From: Clostridia bacterium
GTDB taxonomy: Bacteria > Bacillota > Clostridia > Oscillospirales > Acutalibacteraceae
NCBI GenBank assembly: GCA_017521425.1
Contig: JAFXCQ010000016.1
Coordinates: 124,001-188,000, forward strand
DNA length: 64,000 nucleotides
Direction of reading: 5' to 3'
Part shown: piece after piece, positions 22,614 through 35,324 of the stretch
Layout: each line of letters begins with the position of its first letter
How positions within the stretch are numbered: the first letter of the stretch is position 1
Notes under the pieces: model-generated
The model's input: only the letters and a program-made list of their open reading frames with translations
What the model was told of the DNA's origin: nothing
The model's database searches: none
Made by a program: the position numbers and the translations under genes

Positions 22614-22846
22614 TGTATGAAAGGCATTGACGAAGACAGTAGGCTTTTTGCAAAAATCTCAAAGCGAACCGGGGGCGGTGTAAGCCCGGTAGATTTAAAA
22701 GGCTGAAAATCACTTCTGAGCTGAAAGACTGAAATTGCAGTAAGTCTTTACGGAAACTCACCGTTATAGGAGTGGCGTATGTCAGTACGTAGTAATAAAG
22801 GTGGTTGCAAGTTACACTTGTCCTGTTATTACAGGGCAGGTTTTTT
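22614..22846 (+). promoter_or_regulatory. T-box riboswitch (isoleucine)
   Basis: The leader has stem I (GACGAAGACAGTAGG facing ATCACTTC), an AGCGAACCGGGGGC/GTAAGCCCGG upper part, and a specifier loop with ATC (22709-22711) followed by A: an Ile codon in the expected place. AAAGGTGGTTGC near 22797-22808 is a divergent T-box; its TGGT matches the ACCA end of tRNA-Ile. The terminator CTTGTCCTGT-tatt-ACAGGGCAGG plus TTTTTT is at 22817-22846. Uncharged tRNA-Ile should allow read-through into ileS. Confidence 0.9.
22817..22846 (+). terminator. T-box terminator
   Basis: 10-bp stem with two G-U pairs followed by six T; mutually exclusive with the T-box antiterminator. Confidence 0.8.
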
Positions 22847-22881: not shown

Positions 22882-25800
22882 ATGTACGACCCAATTTCAC
22901 CAAATGTGAATTTTGTTGAACAAGAAAAACAAATTGAAAAATTCTGGCGCGACCAAAAAATCTTTGAAAAAAGTATTGAAGACAGAAAGAACGGAACACC
23001 TTATGTCTTTTATGATGGTCCACCAACAGCAAATGGTAAGCCACACATCGGTCACGTTTTAACACGTGTTATTAAAGATATGATTCCACGTTACCGTACA
23101 ATGAAAGGTTGTATGGTTCCGAGAAAAGCCGGTTGGGATACTCACGGACTTCCTGTTGAACTTGAAGTTGAAAAACTTTTAGGTCTTGACGGTAAAGAAC
23201 AGATAGAAGAATATGGTCTTGAGCCATTTATTGGTCACTGTAAAGAAAGCGTGTGGAAATATAAAGGTATGTGGGAAGATTTCTCACGTACAGTTGGTTT
23301 CTGGGCGGATATGGAAGACCCTTATGTAACTTATCACAATGACTTTATTGAGTCAGAATGGTGGGCGCTCAAGAAGATTTACGAAAAAAATCTTCTTTAT
23401 AAGGGCTTTAAAATTGTTCCTTATTGCCCTCGTTGCGGTACACCACTTTCTTCACACGAAGTTGCACAAGGTTATAAAACAGTAAAAGAACGTTCAGCAG
23501 TAGTTCGTTTCAAAGTAGCCGATGAAGATGCATATTTCCTTGCATGGACTACTACACCTTGGACACTTCCTTCAAACGTAGCACTTTGCGTAAACCCTGC
23601 TGATACATACTGCAAAGTTAAAGCGGCTGACGGCTTTACTTACTATATGGCAGAAGCACTTCTTGATAAAGTTTTAGGCAAGCTTAAAACAGAAGAAACT
23701 GAAGCTTACGAAATAATCGAAACAATGAAAGGTGCCGACCTCGAACATAAAGAATATGTTCCACTTTTTGATTATGTAAAACCACTTTGTGACAAGCAGA
23801 ACAAAAAAGGTTTCTTTATTACAACTGACAGTTATGTTACTATGTCAGACGGTACCGGTATTGTTCACATTGCGCCTGCATTCGGTGAAGATGACGCAAA
23901 AGTTGGTAGAAAGTACGACTTACCATTTGTGCAGTTAGTTGATGGTGCTGGTTTAATGGCAGAGCCAACTCCTTATGTTGGTACTTTCGTTAAAGATGCA
24001 GACAAATTAGTTTTAGTTGACCTTGAAAAAGCAGGACTTCTTTTTGATGCACCGAAATTTGAACACGAATATCCACACTGCTGGAGATGTTCAACACCTC
24101 TTATTTACTATGCAAGAGAATCCTGGTTCATCAAGATGACAGAAGTAAGAGAAGACTTGATTAAAAATAACAACACAATCAACTGGATTCCTGAAAGCAT
24201 TGGTAAAGGTCGTTTTGGCGACTGGTTAGAAAATGTTCAGGACTGGGGTATTTCACGTAACAGATATTGGGGTACACCTCTCAACATCTGGGAATGTGAA
24301 TGCGGTTGTCGTCATTCAATCGGCTCTATTGAAGAATTAAAATCAATGAGTGATAATTGCCCTGACGATATAGAACTTCACAGACCATTTATTGATGCAG
24401 TTACAATCAAATGTCCCGATTGCGGTAAAGAAATGCATCGTGTACCTGAAGTTATTGACTGTTGGTTTGACAGTGGTGCAATGCCATTTGCACAACACCA
24501 CTATCCTTTTGAAAATAAAGAATTATTTGAAGCACAATTCCCTGCAGATTTTATTTCTGAAGCAGTTGACCAAACAAGAGGTTGGTTCTATTCACTTCTT
24601 GCAATTTCAACTCTTATTTTCAATAAAGCACCTTATAAAAATGTTATCGTTTTAGGTCACGTACAAGATGAAAACGGTCAGAAAATGAGTAAATCAAAGG
24701 GTAACGCGGTTGACCCGTTTGATGCACTTGAAAGTTATGGCGCAGACGCAATACGCTGGTATTTCTACACAAACTCTGCCCCTTGGCTCCCTAACCGTTT
24801 CTACGGTAAAACAGTTGTTGAAGGTCAGAGAAAGTTTATGGGTACTCTTTGGAATACTTACGCTTTCTATGTGCTTTATGCAAATATTGATAAGTTTGAC
24901 CCGACTAAATACAATTTAGAAGATTGCAAACTTACAGTAATGGATAAATGGCTTCTTTCAAAACTTTACTCGATGGTTAAAGCGGTTGATGATAACCTTG
25001 CTAACTATAAAATTCCAGAAGCAGCAAAAGCACTTCAGGAATTCACAGATGAAATGAGTAACTGGTATGTTCGTCGTGGCAGAGAAAGATATTGGGTTCA
25101 GGGCGAAACAGATGATAAGACTGCTGCTTATATGACACTTTACACAGCACTTACTGTTACTGCAAAAACTGCTGCTCCGATGATTCCGTTTATGGCAGAA
25201 GCAATTTACAGAAACCTTGTTTGTAATGTAGATAAAACTGCTCCTGAAAGTGTTCACCTTTGTGACTTCCCTGTAGTACGTGAAGACCTTATTGACAAGG
25301 AACTCGAAAAGAATATGGATGAAGTAGTTGACATTGTTGTTCTTGGTCGTGCAGCAAGAAACGGCTCTAACTTAAAGAACAGACAACCACTTAACACAAT
25401 GTATGTAAACTGTGATAAAAAGGTTGAGGGCTACTTTATTGATATTATCCGTGAAGAGCTTAATATTAAAAATGTTGACTTTGACGCAGATGCCTCTTCA
25501 TTCGTTTCATATACATTTAAACCACAATTAAAGACATTAGGTCCGAAATACGGTAAACAATTAGGCGAAATCAGAACTGCTTTAGCAGAACTTCCAAGTG
25601 ATGCTAAACAGACACTTGATTCTGAGGGTAAACTTGTTCTCAATTTAGCAAGTGGTACAGTTGAACTTTCTGCAGAAGATGTTCTTATTGACACAGTTCA
25701 GAAAGAGGGCGTGTTCACAGTTTCAGATAAAGGTGTTACTGTTGCACTTGATACAGAACTTACAGAAGAACTTATTGAGGAAGGTTTTGTAAAAGAACTT

Positions 25801-27486: not shown

Positions 27487-28263
27487 TTACTTTACGCCAC
27501 CATAAATGTCACTTTCAATATAGTCAACATCCAACATTCTGCAGAAGTTGAGTGAGAAAAGGTCGTTTGCAGTCCAGAGACCAACTTTTAAGCCTTTATC
27601 GTGGAATTCTTTAACCATTTCTTTTGTGGCAACTTTGTAATCTGCATCAATGTCAAAACCATAGTCGAAGCATCTTCTGTAATCGCCGCAGTTTTTGCCG
27701 TAAGTGAGCATAATGTTAAGTTCAGGGAATGCTTCGTGTGCTTTTATAAGATTGTCAAATTCAAATGACTGAAGTGAGCATTTAGATAAATCATATTTCT
27801 CTTTTGCCATGGTGAAAAGGTCGTTGATTTGCTCATCGGTCCATTCGCCTTTGAGTTCGATAAAGCAAATCATATTACCTTGTCTGCAGATATCTAAATA
27901 TCTTTCAAAAGTGCAAATGTAGCAAACTTCTTTTGATTTATCGTTGTAAATAGGTTTCTGTGTAAGTTCAACATAGGTGGAGTCTGCAACGAGTAATTCT
28001 GTGCCATCATTGAATTTAACTTCATCATTATGGTTCACAACGAAAACTCCGTCTTTTGTAATTCTTACATCTGTTTCAATACCACCTGAACCATTTTCTA
28101 TCGCACTTAAAAAAGCTGCTTCGGTGTTACCGGGTTGTTTCGCACTGTGTCCACGGTGAGCAATCATACAAATATCTTTATGTTTCTTTTCGTTTGATTT
28201 GTGAATTCCGAAAAGCGCTGCAGCACCTGCTGCCGCTGCTATAACCAATGCTTTTCTTTTCAT
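27487..28263 (-). CDS. Membrane-anchored glycerophosphodiester phosphodiesterase
   Basis: 258 residues. An N-terminal basic and hydrophobic segment (MKRKALVIAAAAGAAALFG) forms a signal anchor. The GDPD fold follows with AHRGHS, NTEAAF, GIETDVRITKDG, FIELKG and GLWTAND. It hydrolyses glycerophosphodiesters to glycerol-3-phosphate and an alcohol, probably at the outer face of the membrane. Start at MKRK with AAAGGAG; the frame to 28287 has no ribosome site. Confidence 0.92.
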   Translation of the reverse strand: MKRKALVIAAAAGAAALFGIHKSNEKKHKDICMIAHRGHSAKQPGNTEAAFLSAIENGSGGIETDVRITKDGVFVVNHNDEVKFNDGTELLVADSTYVELTQKPIYNDKSKEVCYICTFERYLDICRQGNMICFIELKGEWTDEQINDLFTMAKEKYDLSKCSLQSFEFDNLIKAHEAFPELNIMLTYGKNCGDYRRCFDYGFDIDADYKVATKEMVKEFHDKGLKVGLWTANDLFSLNFCRMLDVDYIESDIYGGVK

Positions 28264-28323
28264 AATTTTTCTCCTTTTGTTTTGCAAAATTTACTGTTAC
28301 AATAATATCACTCTCAATTTGTA

Positions 28324-28352
28324 TTGTCAATAATGTCATTTTATGTTAAAAT
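28324..28352 (+). promoter_or_regulatory. Promoter of the second YfcE-type gene
   Basis: TTGTCA, 17-base spacer, TAAAAT. Confidence 0.65.
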
Positions 28353-28382
28353 TAAAAAAAGTACAAATTCAAAGGTGATTTT

Positions 28383-28925
28383 ATGACGATTCTTATTGCA
28401 TCAGATATTCACGGTTCGCTTAAGTATTGCAATAAATTAGTTGAGCAATATAAAAAAGAAAATTGTGATAAACTTATTCTTTTGGGTGATATTTTATACC
28501 ACGGGCCACGTAACGATTTACCTGAAGAATATAACCCTAAAGGCGTAATACAATTACTGAATTCTATGAGTGATGAAATTCTTACTGTTCGTGGAAACTG
28601 TGAAGCAGAAGTTGATGATATGGTTCTTGATTTTAATGTATTGGCAGAGTATGCAATTCTTTATATAAAAAATAGACTTGTTTTTCTTACTCATGGTCAT
28701 AAATTTAACCCGCAGAATATGCCGAAATTAAAAAAAGGGGATATACTTTTCAATGGACACACTCATATAAGTAAAATTGAAGAAATCGGTGATGTTTTAT
28801 ATGTAAATCCCGGTTCTGTTTCGATACCTAAAGAAAATACAGAAAGAGGGTATATCGTTCTTACAGAAGAAAGTATTACACATAAAAATCTTGATGGTGA
28901 AGTTTTGAAAAAATATAATCTTTAA
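28383..28925 (+). CDS. YfcE-type phosphodiesterase (metallophosphoesterase)
   Basis: 180 residues. Ligand motifs: SDIHG, GDILYHGPRN, RGNCEAE, THGH and NGHTH, then NPGSVSIP. The GDxLYHGPRN loop and length are those of Escherichia coli YfcE itself, closer than the 17446 paralogue. It is a Mn2+-dependent phosphodiesterase of unknown physiological substrate. Single-gene unit with promoter and terminator. Confidence 0.92.
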   Translation: MTILIASDIHGSLKYCNKLVEQYKKENCDKLILLGDILYHGPRNDLPEEYNPKGVIQLLNSMSDEILTVRGNCEAEVDDMVLDFNVLAEYAILYIKNRLVFLTHGHKFNPQNMPKLKKGDILFNGHTHISKIEEIGDVLYVNPGSVSIPKENTERGYIVLTEESITHKNLDGEVLKKYNL

Positions 28926-28927
28926 TG

Positions 28928-28968
28928 AAAAATAACTTGTTACGAAATTTTCGCAACAAGTTATTTTT
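28928..28968 (+). terminator. Intrinsic terminator
   Basis: AAAAATAACTTGTT pairs with AACAAGTTATTTTT, with CGAAA/TTTCG pairing inside, followed by CTTTTTT. Confidence 0.8.
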
Positions 28969-29088
28969 CTTTTTTAATATTCTGAATAAGAAATATGCAA
29001 CACGATGTATTATATTTTACAATTTTAATTATTTTTGGGGAATGTTGAACATATTTTAGGGTGTTTTGTAGAATATTGTCAAAATATA

Positions 29089-29117
29089 TTGACTTGTATT
29101 GGAAAATATGTTTAAAT
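29089..29117 (+). promoter_or_regulatory. Promoter of the chemoreceptor gene
   Basis: TTGACT, 17-base spacer, TTAAAT. A motility-sigma (TAAA-N15-GCCGATAA) promoter was looked for and not seen. Confidence 0.5.
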
Positions 29118-29187
29118 TGTAGAGTGTATAGTAGTATATACATATTGGGTTATATTATGTTTGGTTATATTTTAAGGAGGAAACTTT

Positions 29188-31173
29188 ATGAAAAAGAAAA
29201 AACCAGAAAGACAAAGAAGTATCGGCTACGTAATGGCGCGTATGTCGTTTATTATGGTTATTGTCGGTATGGTGTGGATTTCTATGATTTCTATTGCATC
29301 TAACTTTATTGCAACCAAAAATGTTGTTTCCAGGGAGTTGCTTAGTGTAGTTACAACTGCAGCGAGAAGTGTACAGTGGGAATTACAGTCTTATGTTAAT
29401 TTAGCAGAAGCATTCGCCACTGATTCATATCTTTTATCGGATGATTATTCTGCGGCAGAGAAGCAAGCGCACATTACCGAAAAAGCTACTGCACATGGTT
29501 TAGTTGGTGGCGATATGCTTGACACAAGTGGTGTTGGTTTGGACGGAACAAATTACAGTTCATCTGAATCATTTAAAGAAGCGTTAAACGGTAAAGTGTT
29601 TATTTCTGCACCTACAGATACGGGTAATGGCACAAAAATGATGTTTATTGCTGCTCCTATATGGGCAAATGGTGTTGAAGGTTCTGACGTTGTAGGTGTT
29701 ATTTATCTCATACCTTCGCCAACAGTTTTAGATGATATTGTAAAATCAATAAAATCAAGTGATAGTGGTATAACTAATATTCTCGATAGCACAGGCGCTG
29801 TTATTGCTACATCAAAAGTAGCAGAAGAAGGTGCTGAAGAAGATGTTACTGCAGGTGCAAGTGAAGCTGAAATGGCTACATATATGGAACTTAATTCACG
29901 TATGATTTCCGGTGAAACCGGTTCTGAAACTTATGATTTTGCGGGTGTTTCTTATTTTACCGCTTATTCACCGATCGTAGGTACATCTGGTTGGTCAATT
30001 GCAGTTACTTCACCTTATGCTGATTTCCTCAGTAGTGTTGCTACTGTTTCACTTGTAATTTTTGTATGCGTTATCGTTATTGGTCTTCTTGCACTTTATA
30101 TCGCAAACAGACTCGGTAAGAAAATCGGTGGACCAATGAGTATCTGTACTGCTATCATCAATGGTATTGGTATTGGTGATTTCAGCAAAGAAGTACCTGT
30201 TGTTAAAAGAAAAGACGAAACAAGACTTCTTGCAGAAGCAACAGCTAAAGCAATCAACGAATTAAAAGAAATAGTTTATGATGTTACACGTGTTCTTGAA
30301 GCAGTTGCAGATGGTGATTTGACTGTTGATGTTGACGAAAAATCAGAAATGTATGTGGGCGATTATCAACGTATTTATGAGTCACTCACAAGCATTAAAA
30401 CAAGTCTTCAGGCTACAATGGAACAAATTGATGTTGCGGCAGAACAAGTTACATCAGGTTCAGAACAAGTTTCAATTGGTGCTTCTAACCTTTCAGAAGG
30501 TTCAACTGGTCAGGCTTCTTCAGTTGCTCAATTAGCATCAAATATCCGTACAATTGCAGATTTAATCAATGCAAACGCAGATGATGCTGCAAATGCTAAC
30601 AACTTAACTAACGAAGCAGGTGTCGCTATGGGCGATGCAACTGTATCTATGGAAAGTTTAGTTACAGCTATGAATGAAATTGCTGACCTTTCTGAAGAAA
30701 TTAAAAAGATTAACAAAACAATCGAAGATATTGCATTCCAGACAAATATTCTTGCACTTAATGCGGCGGTTGAAGCAGCAAGAGCAGGTGCAGCAGGTAA
30801 AGGTTTTGCAGTTGTTGCTGATGAGGTAAGAAACCTTGCAGGTAAATCACAAGAGGCAGCAAAGAGTACAACAGCTCTTATCGAAAATACAGTTCTTGCG
30901 ATTGAAAAAGGTACAGACCTTGTTAATGATGTTGCAAAGAAAATGACAGACGTTGCAGCTTCTGCCGGTGCTGTTGCTCAGATTAACGGTAAGATTTCAG
31001 AAGAAAGTAAAAACACCGCACTTTCTATTAACGAAATTACAATTGGTATTGACCAGATTTCAAATATCGTTCAGAATAACTCCGCTACATCACAGCAATC
31101 TGCGGCAGCGGCTGAAGAGCTTGCGGGTCAGGCTAACACACTTAAAAATCTTATTGAAGCATTCAAATATTGA
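29188..31173 (+). CDS. Methyl-accepting chemotaxis protein
   Basis: 661 residues: membrane helix about 14-36, extracellular Cache-like sensor about 37-280 ([38 protein letters not shown]), membrane helix about 281-303, HAMP, then a cytoplasmic signalling coiled coil with the hairpin tip [20 protein letters not shown]. The Cache type binds small ligands such as amino acids. No che or flagellar genes are nearby, so it is an orphan receptor feeding a CheA elsewhere. Confidence 0.95.
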
Positions 31174-31179
31174 TTTTCA

Positions 31180-31220
31180 AAAAACAGAGTCGGTAGGTTC
31201 ACACTACCGACTCTGTTTTT
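31180..31220. terminator. Bidirectional terminator between convergent genes
   Basis: Perfect 17-bp stem AAAAACAGAGTCGGTAG with loop gttcaca; overlaps the end of the ClpX-like gene. Confidence 0.85.
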
Positions 31221-32704
31221 ATTGAATTGTATGGAATGTAGTTTTTTCTGATTATTAAAATTTGTTTTTGAATCATTTTTTTTGCATCTCGCACGAGACA
31301 GCTTTTATAAAGACTGTAGTAGGCTTTAAACTCCCTGCGGTGGTCGGATGAGCCCTTTTCTGCCACTTCGCTCATTATCTGGTCAAAGATAGACTGTGTG
31401 CGTGTTAAATCACCCGCTGTATCGGAGACCTCTGCTAATTTTGTGAAGGAGGATAAGTGGTAATCTTTTTCAGGAAGCTGGTCTAAGGTGTATTGCGTAC
31501 AGGTTAAAAGAAAGTAATAAAGTTTCATTTCTTCCTGGGGTGTTATGTCAGAGGTAAAATTCATTAGATAGTTTACATAGGCGTATGCTTCGGCGGGAGT
31601 GGTTACGAAGTCGTAAAAGGATTCATCACATTCCTCAGCTGCTTCTTCGACTTCGGTAGTTATGATTTTGTCAAGTCCTTTTATTTTGCGTAATTTAGAA
31701 TGGTAGTATATCGGGGTGAGTGTGTCGTTTTTTACAGATAAAGTAACACTCGAGATGGTTGTGTCTTTGTCGATATCGACAAAAGCTTGGTTTAATGCAT
31801 TCTGCAATATTGTACCGACTGCTCTCGCACCGGTGTTAAGCTCGGTACACATTTCTGCAATTTTTTCACAGGCACTCACATCAATTTTTAAATTTACCCC
31901 CGAAACTTTAAAAAGGTGTGAATATTTTTCAATATAGGAGGCTTTCGGTGATTGTAAGAGAAAGCAGAAATCTTCCTTTGAGAGAGGCGGAATGTAGTGT
32001 ATTTCTCCTATTCTGCCTAAAAGCTCCGCGTTAAATCCGTAGCTTTTTATATCATCTAAAGTAGCATACTTTAAATATTCGCTTTCATTTTCGGTTACAG
32101 TGTTGTTGATAAAACCGATTGTGTTTCTGCCCTTCATTCGTTTTTTTATCATATCCTCAAGACCATCAAATGCCCCTGAGAAGATGAAGAGCATTTTGCT
32201 TGTGTCAATAAAATCTGTTCTGCCACTTCCTAAATCGCACGAGAGACCTTTACCTTCAATTACTTGTAATAGGTTAAATTGTGGGTTTGAAATCTCACCA
32301 TCTCTGAATTTCATTTTACAGAACTCATCAATTATTACTATACTGCTATTGAATTTTTCAACGTCAGTGCAGGCTTGCTTTGCGAGATTGAAAAGCTGAC
32401 TCAAGGTAGTGCCCTTGTATCCTTCAGGACTTAATGCACTGGAGTCGATTGTGAATACATTAAGCCCTGCAGCATCAGCTAACGATTTTATTAAGTGAGA
32501 TTTACCGCCACCGGTTCGTGCTAATACCAACATTGAGCAGATAGGGAGCGAATCAGGTGATATTCCAGCTTCTATAGCGCAGAGTTTTCTTAAATGAAGG
32601 CTTATGAGTGAAGCTAATTTATTTAAGGTTTCCTTTTGAGTTTCAAGAGGAACTATTTTATTTTGTGCTTTTTTTATGAGCAAATCTTTTGGAATGTACT
32701 TCAT
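31199..32704 (-). CDS. Divergent ClpX-like AAA+ ATPase with a C-terminal helical domain
   Basis: 501 residues. AAA+ core: Walker A ARTGGGKS at 62-69 (ClpX has GPTGxGKT), SALSPEGYKGTT, Walker B SIVIIDEF at 121-128, LFIFSGAFDGLEDMIKKR, arginine segment LLGRIGEI, sensor 2 LNTGARAVGTIL. That order is ClpX/HslU-like, but the ClpX zinc-binding domain is absent. Residues about 370-501 are an extra helical domain resembling the small protein encoded just upstream. This extra part recalls the all-alpha domain of VirD4-type conjugation ATPases (pattern SIFDQIM, then FKAYYSLYK). Function unknown; a mobile-element unfoldase is possible. The start has a GAAAGGAGCG site. Confidence 0.75.
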   Translation of the reverse strand: MKYIPKDLLIKKAQNKIVPLETQKETLNKLASLISLHLRKLCAIEAGISPDSLPICSMLVLARTGGGKSHLIKSLADAAGLNVFTIDSSALSPEGYKGTTLSQLFNLAKQACTDVEKFNSSIVIIDEFCKMKFRDGEISNPQFNLLQVIEGKGLSCDLGSGRTDFIDTSKMLFIFSGAFDGLEDMIKKRMKGRNTIGFINNTVTENESEYLKYATLDDIKSYGFNAELLGRIGEIHYIPPLSKEDFCFLLQSPKASYIEKYSHLFKVSGVNLKIDVSACEKIAEMCTELNTGARAVGTILQNALNQAFVDIDKDTTISSVTLSVKNDTLTPIYYHSKLRKIKGLDKIITTEVEEAAEECDESFYDFVTTPAEAYAYVNYLMNFTSDITPQEEMKLYYFLLTCTQYTLDQLPEKDYHLSSFTKLAEVSDTAGDLTRTQSIFDQIMSEVAEKGSSDHRREFKAYYSLYKSCLVRDAKKMIQKQILIIRKNYIPYNSIKTESVV

Positions 32705-32736: not shown

Positions 32737-33216
32737 TTAATATATTGGAGGATGATAATTTTCAACAATTTTCCAGAAATGCTTTTCTATAACCTTTCCG
32801 GAATTTTCATCGCGCAATTCTAAAAATTCCTTATAAAATTTTCTTGTAGTCTGGTGTTTACTTAAATATGCTTTTTGAAGAGTTTCTTTTATAAATTGGT
32901 CGTAGAGTGGTTCGTCGTAGGAAGCATCGTTTATAAGAAATGCTGCAAGTAACCCAAGAGTCTGTAAATTATGGTTAGCTTTATTATAAAAGTCTTTTAA
33001 ATAATTAAGCGAAGTCTGTAAAAAGCAGAAAAGAAGTTTTTCTTCATTGGGAGGAATTTCTTTCAACAAGCTTATAAGGTGATTTGTGAATTTGTTAATA
33101 TCATCTTCGGTTTGTATGAATTCAGCAAAAGGGATTTTGTAGGTTGCTTCGTAAATTTCGGTTGGCGAAGCTTGTTTTGCTGTTATAATGGTTTCTAATG
33201 AATATAGGTTTTTCAT
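32737..33216 (-). CDS. Unknown helical protein paired with the ClpX-like ATPase
   Basis: 159 residues, all-helical by eye, no signal or membrane segment. The stretch EEKLLFCFLQTSLNYLKDFY, then LQTLGLLAAFL, then PLYDQFIKET, then TTRKFYKEFLEL can be laid on the C-terminal domain of the neighbouring 501-residue ATPase (EEMKLYYFLLTCTQYTLDQL, FTKLAEVS, SIFDQIMSE, EFKAYYSLY). Both resemble the all-alpha domain of TraG/VirD4 coupling proteins of Firmicutes elements. The gap to the ATPase gene is 32 bases. Ribosome site AAAAGGAGC. An adaptor for the ATPase is a reasonable guess. Confidence 0.65.
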   Translation of the reverse strand: MKNLYSLETIITAKQASPTEIYEATYKIPFAEFIQTEDDINKFTNHLISLLKEIPPNEEKLLFCFLQTSLNYLKDFYNKANHNLQTLGLLAAFLINDASYDEPLYDQFIKETLQKAYLSKHQTTRKFYKEFLELRDENSGKVIEKHFWKIVENYHPPIY

Positions 33217-33248
33217 ATTTACTGCTCCTTTTCGTTTCGCTTTATATT

Positions 33249-33268
33249 GCCCATCTCTCCGGATGGGC
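33249..33268 (-). promoter_or_regulatory. Hairpin directly after micro-ORF 2
   Basis: RNA sense: GCCCATC-cggaga-GATGGGC, 7-bp stem starting at the base after the UAA stop. Same stem length, loop length and position as the hairpin at 33347-33366, with paired substitutions. Confidence 0.75.
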
Positions 33269-33304
33269 TTATACCAGCAGAAGAAGTTTCTTTGTGTTTG
33301 TCAT
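33269..33304 (-). CDS. Micro-ORF 2 (11 codons, ends KLLLLV)
   Basis: MTNTKKLLLLV then UAA. Preceded by AAAGGGG with an 8-base gap. The last six codons (AAA CTT CTT CTG CTG GTA) and stop are identical to micro-ORF 1, and a hairpin follows directly. Four consecutive Leu codons recall leucine-operon leader peptides. It may be a regulatory leader for the two genes downstream. Confidence 0.55.
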   Translation of the reverse strand: MTNTKKLLLLV

Positions 33305-33346
33305 TTTCAGTACCCCTTTCTTATTGTTTGTATTCTTTTTGTTGTC

Positions 33347-33366
33347 GCCCACATCTCTGTGTGGGC
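33347..33366 (-). promoter_or_regulatory. Hairpin directly after micro-ORF 1
   Basis: RNA sense: GCCCACA-cagaga-TGTGGGC. Relative to the other copy, inner stem pairs ACA/TGT replace ATC/GAT, so pairing is kept while sequence changes. No T-tract. Confidence 0.75.
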
Positions 33367-33402
33367 TTATACCAGCAGAAGAAGTTTTGTTGTATTTTTC
33401 AT
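33367..33402 (-). CDS. Micro-ORF 1 (11 codons, ends KLLLLV)
   Basis: MKNTTKLLLLV then UAA. Preceded by AAAGGAGC with an 8-base gap to the ATG. Near-duplicate of micro-ORF 2, 98 bases upstream in the same transcript. The ribosome site and first codons also resemble the start of the real gene at 33216 (MKN). It lies about 40 bases after the promoter at 33449-33476. Confidence 0.55.
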   Translation of the reverse strand: MKNTTKLLLLV

Positions 33403-33448
33403 TTTGTTTTGCTCCTTTCGTTTTGGTTTTCTGTTTCTTTCTGTCTTT

Positions 33449-33476
33449 ACTATACCACACATTTTTCCAAAGTCAA
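33449..33476 (-). promoter_or_regulatory. Promoter of the micro-ORF/ClpX-like operon
   Basis: Minus strand: TTGACT, 16-base spacer, TATAGT. The resulting mRNA leader of about 225 bases carries both micro-ORFs and hairpins. The 33217-33559 gap holds only this leader and the divergent promoter. Confidence 0.65.
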
Positions 33477-33502
33477 AGAAACGTCACAACGAAATAGTCA
33501 TA

Positions 33503-33531
33503 TTGACAATAGTTGGTAAATATAGTATTAT
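33503..33531 (+). promoter_or_regulatory. Divergent promoter of the 33560 gene
   Basis: TTGACA, 17-base spacer, TATTAT, about 30 bases before the start codon and 27 bp from the opposite-facing promoter. Confidence 0.7.
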
Positions 33532-33559: not shown

Positions 33560-34279
33560 ATGACAAATATTGAAAAATATAAGGCTTTAAAGGATGAAAG
33601 CAAAAAATATCAGGACCTCATAGAAAATCTCAAAAACCAGGTTTATGGCTACAATGTTTACTTAACTCATATTGCAGTGCGTGGTTTTCCTGAATATTCG
33701 TTTAAAGAAGATTCAAAGGAATTTAAAGTTATAAATAAATTTGTTGATAAAATAATTGGTTATTATAAATCATTTGACGAAAGTGTTTCGTCTGTATTTT
33801 CACGTGAATTTACAGAAAAAGATTCTGTTACCATCAAAAATATGCTTTATGTGATTATCGGTTTTTTAATGAGTGAATGTCGTAAAGAGGATTACACTTT
33901 TTTAGGTGTAATAAAGCTTTTAAAGACCTTTATGGGTTCAACTTCAAAAGAAAATGTCCACGATAAAACCAAAAGCGTGTTTTACAGGATATGGAAAGGT
34001 ATGTCAGATAAAAGTAAAAAAGCTATGCCTGATATATTGAACAATGCTTTTAATGACTTATATGAAAATTTTGACTATAACTATCTTTCAGAAATAGCAG
34101 ATGGTCTTTGGTATTGTATTCGTTTTTATCTTTACGATAATAATTTAGAATACACAGGCGACCCATTTATGATGATGGCAACAAATGATTTAATATTGGA
34201 AATTTCAGAAAGACTTTCTAATATACAACAAAATAAAAAGTCGCATAAATCCCGATTGGAGCGTGATTTATGTGATTGA
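33560..34279 (+). CDS. Unknown cytoplasmic protein of accessory island
   Basis: 239 residues, not recognised. It starts with a short coiled coil (KYKALKDESKKYQDLIENL), then alternating helical segments rich in Phe, Tyr and Lys (KNMLYVIIGFLMSECRKEDY, YRIWKGMSDKSKKAMPDI). No signal or membrane segment. A GAAAGGGG ribosome site precedes the ATG. The next gene's ribosome site and start lie within its last codons. The AT-rich, aromatic-heavy composition differs from the housekeeping genes and fits an accessory or mobile origin. Confidence 0.75.
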   Translation: MTNIEKYKALKDESKKYQDLIENLKNQVYGYNVYLTHIAVRGFPEYSFKEDSKEFKVINKFVDKIIGYYKSFDESVSSVFSREFTEKDSVTIKNMLYVIIGFLMSECRKEDYTFLGVIKLLKTFMGSTSKENVHDKTKSVFYRIWKGMSDKSKKAMPDILNNAFNDLYENFDYNYLSEIADGLWYCIRFYLYDNNLEYTGDPFMMMATNDLILEISERLSNIQQNKKSHKSRLERDLCD

Positions 34280-35324
34280 TAATACTGAATATAGCATCTG
34301 GCGTGATAATTTTTTAGGCGTTTTCCGTGCAATTTCCACCGATGATGATTTTAAAAAGTTAGCATCGTTTTACCCATATAATGGCTATACATTCAATAAA
34401 TGTAAGCAAAGAAAAAACAATCTTTTAAGAAGCGGTAACAGGAATATATATTTAGATGATTTATATGCATTATCTCGTTATTCTGATAAAACTCCCGATA
34501 ATTTGTTATTGGGTCACAATAATATTGCGTTCTTTTGGTCGGAATTATCCGGTGAAAATCTATTTGAAAAAGAGTGTATTGAAAAAATAGTTGAAGCACT
34601 TAAAAGTGATAAAAATTACAGAACTATTTATATACCAAAGGAAATAGAAGATTTCTTATATTATTCAAAATCAGTAATTTTTGAAGTGAATAATAAAAAA
34701 ATAAGAAAACCAATTTTTAATATAAGCGATAATTCGCTTGATTTTAAAACAACCGGTGAAACAGAGTATTGTTATAATCCGCACCTTTTTTATGGCGGAG
34801 ATGTTTACGATATTTTCTGCGATTATGTTGATGATTTAAGCGAAGACGATTTTCCCGGGTTTGAAAAAGAAAAGGTTGAAAAATTTATTGAAACAATAGG
34901 AGTTTATCTTGATACAGGTAAAGCGGAAGCCCAAAAGACAGATAAAGATATTGATTTCAGAATTAAAAACTGGGTGTGTAACTGCACGATGTGGCTCTTG
35001 CTTTCTTATATTGGTGACACTTGCGAAAGACAAGGCGAAAGTGTAGAATATTATTTAAAAAGTCACAACGAAGTAATTGCTTTTATGTTAAAACTTTTCG
35101 TTTTTGGTACTGAAGTTATTAAACAAAAGAGAATTACAGATGAAGTGACAAATGAAAAAAAGAGGATAAGATATTCTGCATTTTTAAGTTGTTCAAATGA
35201 AAAACTTGATGTTCAAAACGAAGATTTTGATTTTTATGATTATGACTTTGAATATAAAACGGCAAGTATATCTGATATGCAAAAATCCTCTTTGTCGGAA
35301 ATTCTCGACTACGAATTAAGGTGA
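34272..35324 (+). CDS. Unknown protein with possible N-terminal HTH
   Basis: About 350 residues. I set the start at GTG 34272 because GGAG lies 10 bases upstream; the GTG at 34263 is too close to it. The gene overlaps its predecessor by 8 bases. Residues about 25-95 (FKKLASFYPYNG, NIYLDDLYALSRYSDKTPDN, LLLG) look like the second half of an XRE-type DNA-binding domain, where the strings usually read as helix 4-5 and LLG. The rest is acidic with Asp/Tyr-rich ends (DFYDYDFEY) and no known domain. It ends 6 bases before the GH78 gene. Confidence 0.65.
   Translation: MIDNTEYSIWRDNFLGVFRAISTDDDFKKLASFYPYNGYTFNKCKQRKNNLLRSGNRNIYLDDLYALSRYSDKTPDNLLLGHNNIAFFWSELSGENLFEKECIEKIVEALKSDKNYRTIYIPKEIEDFLYYSKSVIFEVNNKKIRKPIFNISDNSLDFKTTGETEYCYNPHLFYGGDVYDIFCDYVDDLSEDDFPGFEKEKVEKFIETIGVYLDTGKAEAQKTDKDIDFRIKNWVCNCTMWLLLSYIGDTCERQGESVEYYLKSHNEVIAFMLKLFVFGTEVIKQKRITDEVTNEKKRIRYSAFLSCSNEKLDVQNEDFDFYDYDFEYKTASISDMQKSSLSEILDYELR

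Follow-up and report, generated by a model that had tools for sequence, protein, structure and literature searches.

The ClpX-like operon on the minus strand of the 64,000-nucleotide stretch of Clostridia bacterium DNA analysed here (the window) is preceded by a leader built from repeated modules, each comprising a micro-ORF and a hairpin at a fixed distance from a rare codon pair. We propose with moderate confidence that this leader is a modular cis-acting element that controls the operon through translation. Comparison between genomes supports the hairpin, the coding character of the micro-ORFs, the fixed spacing, the rare codon pair and the link to the operon, and we infer the pause, the effect on the operon and any signal. 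The leader has been found so far in part of one genus, and it looks like a variant of leader-ORF control that has not been described before.

The leader begins with promoter-like hexamers on the minus strand (33449..33476), with a -35 element TTGACT at 33476-33471, a spacer of 16 nt and a -10 element TATAGT at 33454-33449, which together match the consensus at 10 of 12 positions; a TG stands ahead of the second hexamer. The block aligns among the six genomes that carry the leader, and the arrangement is kept in all of them, with a promoter scan returning TTGACT, 16 nt and then TATAGT or TATATT in each. The first unit, also on the minus strand, contains a Shine-Dalgarno-like AAAGGAG (33412..33418) and a micro-ORF (33367..33402) that runs from an ATG at 33402 to a TAA at 33369-33367 and encodes MKNTTKLLLLV* with a CTG-CTG codon pair. 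Directly 3' of the TAA lies a 7-bp hairpin (33347..33366), in which the arms GCCCACA and TGTGGGC flank the loop CAGAGA and which folds alone at -11.1 kcal/mol. The second unit repeats this design on the same strand, with a Shine-Dalgarno-like AAAGGGG (33313..33319), a micro-ORF encoding MTNTKKLLLLV* and again containing CTG-CTG (33269..33304; ATG at 33304, TAA at 33271-33269) and a 7-bp hairpin of -11.2 kcal/mol folded alone (33249..33268; arms GCCCATC and GATGGGC, loop CGGAGA). The units score 94.0 and 86.0 bits, respectively, against a covariance model (R1) that was itself built from them. Another Shine-Dalgarno-like sequence, AAGGAG (33225..33230, minus strand), serves the first gene of the operon. 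The first-pass annotation of this DNA had described a promoter and two units with ribosome site, ORF, TAA and 7-bp hairpin, and we recovered each at the same positions and on the minus strand. Its claim that the coding ends are identical was borne out by the 22-mer CTTCTTCTGCTGGTATAAGCCC: a search of the window with up to 3 mismatches allowed found one exact copy in each unit and no other, against 0 occurrences in 100 shuffles; no further copy at up to 3 mismatches was found in the 2.35-Mb genome of origin. The region 33200-33452 folds with a z-score of -2.78, and none of 200 shuffles was equally stable. Between this promoter and a divergent one, a stretch at 33482-33509 (TTGTCAAYATGACTA...TGTGAC) that includes the -35 element of the divergent promoter is kept in all six genomes and may include an operator.

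Model R1 was built from eight units and run on 22 genomes of the same genus, including the genome of origin. Ten hairpin units scored above 80 bits, eight of them the units that built the model, and these ten are distributed over 6 of the 22 genomes, with two units each in the genome of origin (G000), G006, G010 and G013 and one each in G005 and G015. It had been argued beforehand that the ORF-hairpin unit should recur in other genomes with synonymous and compensatory changes, and both the recurrence and the two patterns are present. At E <=0.1, R1 gave some match in 10 of the 22 genomes, and the other six matches scored 25-28 bits; those in G002, G012, G014, G019 and on contig 394 of G013 were left out of the unit counts, and the sixth is the third ORF of G010, which contains CTA-CTG-CTG and lacks a hairpin. 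In that genome (L062 8848-9091), three micro-ORFs follow one another, the second being one of three units without a stop codon and reading in frame into the hairpin-less third; this array represents copies gained and decaying.

Searches beyond the genus returned little. A second model, R2, was built from all ten units and matched the genome of origin alone among 349 family and 345 order genomes, with 12 candidates scored per genome and the order sample including family members. The same genome was the only one of the 349 family genomes with the operon's ATPase at E 1e-50, and a profile of the first operon gene found in those 349 genomes only the genome of origin and one weak match of 44 positions. 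An exact 19-mer was located on one contig in the genome collection, from an Oscillospiraceae MAG, and this contig agrees with that of G006 in length and in the position of the match. A 16-mer occurred in 16 viral stretches, none of which scored as a unit. A viral origin was rejected, as none of five viral stretches with a peptide pattern encodes a relative of the ATPase, and a mobile element was rejected on the grounds that the compared genomes have neighbouring genes in common. No Rfam family matched the leader above its gathering score, and the three matches at E <=5 were far below theirs; the layout was also not found among the listed titles and opening parts of abstracts of open-licence literature, in agreement with the first-pass annotation, which knew of no described family. 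A different leader, of the T-box type, lies elsewhere in the window (22618-22828, plus strand, 105.5 bits). It closely precedes an ORF of 1047 aa that begins at 22882 and, judged by its first part, putatively encodes an isoleucyl-tRNA synthetase.

Three units, the two in the window and one in a relative, encode KLLLLV, and the other 7 of 10 carry NKHLLV or NKHLLA, so that KLLLLV, initially described for both window units, is not a general motif. The six NKHLLV-type units (MTNINLNKHLLV and close variants) share the conserved peptide NINLNKHLLV and differ in codons 4-12 only synonymously. Third codon positions were variable at 6 of 11 sites and the other positions at 2 of 22 (Fisher p 0.008), in a test limited to six related units that were grouped after inspection, with the three KLLLLV units left out. 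The same positional test gave p 0.98 for the other two frames and p 0.017 when the G015 unit was added. The micro-ORFs therefore look translated from their pattern of substitution, as had been expected of the tandem micro-ORFs. An alternative raised earlier, that the units are remnants of truncated signal peptides, agrees poorly with mostly synonymous change and a hairpin held at a fixed distance, which are unlike decay. The stop codon, which had been counted as part of the unit, is absent from 3 of 10 units, where AAA or TTA replaces TAA while the peptide and the hairpin are kept. Models that need termination before the hairpin fail for these three units because the stop codon is missing there.

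The CTG-CTG pair is present in 10 of 10 hairpin units. Among 72 ORFs of at least 200 codons, which were picked mechanically from the window and the loci of five relatives and include some that are mutually homologous, none of 254 Leu-Leu pairs was encoded by CTG-CTG. CTG accounts for 1.4-7.1% of Leu codons depending on the source (2.9% of 1563 in the 33 ORFs of the window), and the genome of origin has one tRNA-Leu(CAG) gene among 36 tRNA matches. All ten units place the stem 6 nt after CTGCTG. As judged from these sequences, the conserved core of the module is CTG-CTG, the 6-nt gap and the hairpin, and not KLLLLV or the stop codon. By a published figure (PMC4833913), some 12 nt of mRNA beyond the codon under translation lie within the ribosome. 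On that footing a ribosome standing on the first CTG would cover 3 nt of the stem, one on the second CTG 6 nt and one at the stop position the full 5' arm of 7 nt, and the hairpin would thus enter the ribosome during reading of the rare codon pair.

Pairing in the stem is standard in 69 of 70 pair cells across the ten units, and in the second G013 unit, which holds the one broken cell, a one-base bulge restores seven pairs. Both sides change in 4 of the 7 pairs; the outermost pair, for example, is GC in eight units and CG in both G013 units. The first-pass annotation had observed that the stem changes between the two window units are paired, and the ten units extend this compensatory pattern. 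Their covariation score of 0.546 was reached by 0 of 500 shuffles, in a test that is inflated by the relatedness of the units, and it fell to 0.117 or less when the partner column was slid by 1-3 positions. Coarser measures were unremarkable, with double-changed pairs matched by 46 of 500 shuffles and pair types by 416 of 500. In G006 and likewise in G010, the two units of the genome differ at one and the same stem pair, with GC in the first case and AU in the second, which suggests repeated change at this position. The consensus fold of the ten units is a single helix. Because of the compensatory changes, we consider that the hairpin is real and under selection. A pseudoknot between UCUG and a loop CAGA, placed by eye, was rejected, since the loops AAAAAG, AGAAAA and CTAAGA break or weaken the pairing.

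The leader had been described as preceding a ClpX-like operon; this association holds and is shared by several members of the genus, with the correction that the adjoining gene encodes a 159-aa protein and the ATPase gene stands second. The first gene (32737..33216, minus strand) encodes a protein without a Pfam or NCBIfam family match; its predicted structure is all-helical (pLDDT 80.7), and a fold search found nothing similar in the PDB at E <=0.001. This protein shares ancestry with the C-terminal domain of the ATPase encoded next (residues 349-491 of 501, 25% identity, also by reverse search), which suggests that it may be a partner or adaptor derived from a duplicated ATPase C-terminal domain. 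The second gene (31199..32704, minus strand) encodes a 501-aa AAA+ ATPase with an extra C-terminal domain, and ClpX structures are its closest PDB matches. Its scores are far below the NCBIfam cut-offs for the ClpX equivalogs (148.6 bits versus 359 and 128.8 versus 370.75), and the cysteine-rich stretch at the N terminus of the genome's own ClpX, presumably a zinc domain, is missing from it. All five ATPase orthologues have the tripeptide IGF where the genome's own ClpX has LGF (placed by eye), in what is presumably the ClpP-binding loop. We conclude that the predicted ATPase is a ClpX-like paralogue and not ClpX itself. Its orthologues, at >=62% identity (at least 62%), occur in 5 of the 22 genus genomes, and in the sixth unit-bearing genome, G013, the contig ends within the leader. 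Contig 7 of G010 (L026 1405-3027, plus strand) encodes another ClpX-like paralogue, which is 31% identical, contains LGF and has a comparable extension at its C terminus; the unit model found no match on this contig. The window ATPase was matched in 70 plasmid and 126 phage records, every one covering <80% of the query, and by PHROG families of unknown function (best E 8.5e-29). A defence system was rejected, the top PADLOC match having only E 0.034. The block beside the ATPase gene (ORFs beginning MKRKAL.. and MTILIASDIHG.. and a chemotaxis receptor ORF) is inverted in G005, and apparently in G015, relative to G000, G006 and G010, based on comparison of L063 9959-15137 and L064 212-3247 with window positions 27487-32704.

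Two genes diverge from the operon on the plus strand. The nearer encodes a 239-aa protein (33560..34279; predicted model pLDDT 60.9) and occurs in exactly those 6 of 22 genus genomes that carry the units. It is adjoined by a gene for a 353-aa protein (34263..35324) that belongs to no Pfam or NCBIfam family. The start of the 239-aa protein, MTNIEKYK, and its ribosome site resemble the micro-ORF start MTNINLNK, a resemblance due to common origin or chance.

A pattern scan of the six leaders, of which that of G013 is cut by a contig end, found no intrinsic terminator on the leader strand; one terminator-like site was detected in G010, on the opposite strand. Neither window hairpin is followed by a T-run or forms a terminator-like site, as had been reported of the T-tract. 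The idea of an attenuator responding to leucine starvation was abandoned, since the searches turned up neither the terminator nor the leucine-related genes that it requires. A search for the RNA-binding domain of Rho gave a match in 9 of 14 control genomes and none in the genome of origin (97% complete), and Rho-dependent control was rejected for that genome on this basis. Pairing of CTGCTGG with the start region of the first gene was unexceptional, with 104-233 of 300 shuffles pairing as low in five genomes, and single-sequence folds left the ribosome site of the first gene partly open (mean unpaired 0.26-0.88); the minimum-energy fold of the leader in the window does pair CTGCTGG with the start of the first gene. 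In the ten-unit consensus, the pattern scan and folds of whole leaders taken singly, we found no conserved alternative fold, terminator or hidden start site that would relay the leader's state. A frameshift from one unit to the next was also rejected, as the units share no alternative frame that stays open or leads in frame to the following start.

Control through translation, as we propose it, would operate on one transcript bearing one or two copies of the module, or three when the degenerate one is included. Each module would supply a ribosome site, an ATG, a micro-ORF of 11-12 codons ending in CTG-CTG and a Val or Ala codon, and the 7-bp hairpin. Ribosomes would load on every module and slow at CTG-CTG as the hairpin begins to enter the ribosome, and in moving to the next codon, a stop in 7 of 10 units, the ribosome would melt the hairpin. 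The speed of this passage would set the number of ribosomes that continue or re-initiate towards the first operon gene, and it would also set ribosome coverage of the 5' leader. The simplest candidate signal would be the supply of charged tRNA-Leu(CAG). A more specific version, which we offer tentatively, is a translational timer cassette of a rare codon pair and a hairpin at 6 nt, in which the pause would read the supply of Leu-CAG tRNA and set expression of the ClpX-type unfoldase, and copy number would tune the response, without a terminator, Rho or sequestration of a start site.

The foremost alternative to control by ribosome traffic is that the letters of CTGCTGG serve as an RNA-binding site. 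Together with the hairpin they would then form an RNA element to which a protein or a small RNA binds, for example in autoregulation by an operon product, and the frame would be a loading device or incidental. CTGCTGG could indeed be conserved as RNA letters instead of codons, since it is invariant in 10 of 10 units while upstream synonymous sites vary, and both the retention of the hairpin in units that lost the stop codon and the tandem copies, which suit a binding array, are consistent with such an element. We nevertheless consider it unlikely. RNA binding alone leaves the synonymous pattern and the conserved NINLNKHLLV unexplained, the loop sequence varies (CAGAGA, CGGAGA, CTAAGA, AAAAAG and AGAAAA), and the third ORF of G010 retains CTG-CTG without any hairpin.

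Less likely again is a functional micro-peptide, acting either as a nascent chain that stalls the ribosome or as a C-terminal -LLV or -LLA tag for the ClpX-like ATPase. The peptide is conserved with synonymous change, and its C terminus is LLV or LLA in 7 of 10 units. A precedent for stalling is the six-residue MsrDL, which stalls at UAA with the ribosome covering the first half of a hairpin, as described in the available extract of the report (PMC10314930). However, the KLLLLV and NKHLLV versions are unlike one another, 3 of 10 products are extended and have no LLV end, and a free tag needs no hairpin at a fixed distance. G005, with its one unit among the extended ones, contradicts a degron peptide, and we rejected that candidate.

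We give still less credence to plain ribosome loading and re-initiation that raise translation of the first gene without sensing, with hairpins that stabilise the mRNA or block run-through. Leader genes that boost translation over short distances have been proposed for many bacteria, according to the part of the source at hand (PMC4833913), and the extended ORFs of the stop-less units end 2 nt (G005) and 13 nt (G006) ahead of the ATG of the first gene. The distances from the last micro-ORF to the gene in G000, G015 and G010 are 52, 55 and 37 nt, respectively, which exceed the short distances proposed in that part of PMC4833913, and re-initiation leaves CTG-CTG and the exact 6-nt gap unexplained. 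It is highly improbable that the stem is a palindromic operator in the DNA or that the units are a functionless repeat in decay. Pointing that way are a stem that forms a DNA palindrome downstream of the promoter and tandem copies in variable number, but an operator would keep its letters and here the arms change in compensated fashion, and decay would not preserve frame, spacing and pairing over six genomes.

The leader that we interpret as translational control resembles leu, trp and his leader-peptide attenuation in its short leader ORF, clustered codons for one amino acid and hairpin close behind, all ahead of the first gene. Rare Leu codons also occur in the leu leader of E. coli. The present leader differs from these systems in having no terminator on the leader strand, no leucine genes downstream, tandem units and a dispensable stop. 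The RNAs of type III toxin-antitoxin systems such as ToxIN likewise have RNA repeats in tandem, followed by a gene that is transcribed from the same promoter. Here, by contrast, no toxin family was found among the proteins searched, and the units are 92-98 nt long and coding-looking, unlike the short non-coding repeats of those systems. The erm leaders have very short ORFs, which occur in pairs upstream of ermA, ermD and ermB as far as the available text states (PMC8274638), and stalling there is believed to rearrange hairpins at the start of the resistance gene, an arrangement not evident in the folds of the present leader. MsrDL shares coverage of the first half of a hairpin by a ribosome stalled at UAA, with the difference that its hairpin belongs to an intrinsic terminator, according to the same extract (PMC10314930), and no terminator-like site was found on the leader strand here. 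Both also differ in their targets, which here is a ClpX-like operon, and in that the copies here are repeats of one module. The uof-fur system has an upstream ORF with multiple rare codons, the decoding of which is coupled to the downstream gene (PMC11550727); it involves other codons and genes, and neither a hairpin module nor copies in tandem are described in the excerpted text of that report.

Leader peptides are usually recognised through terminators or through the genes that they control. Neither clue exists here, and it is comparison alone that reveals the leader. Because the codon pair, gap, hairpin, stop codon and copy number can be varied separately, it offers a clean test system. If the pause model holds, a compact and copyable cassette of codon choice and a hairpin would tie translation speed to the expression of a specialised ClpX-type unfoldase.
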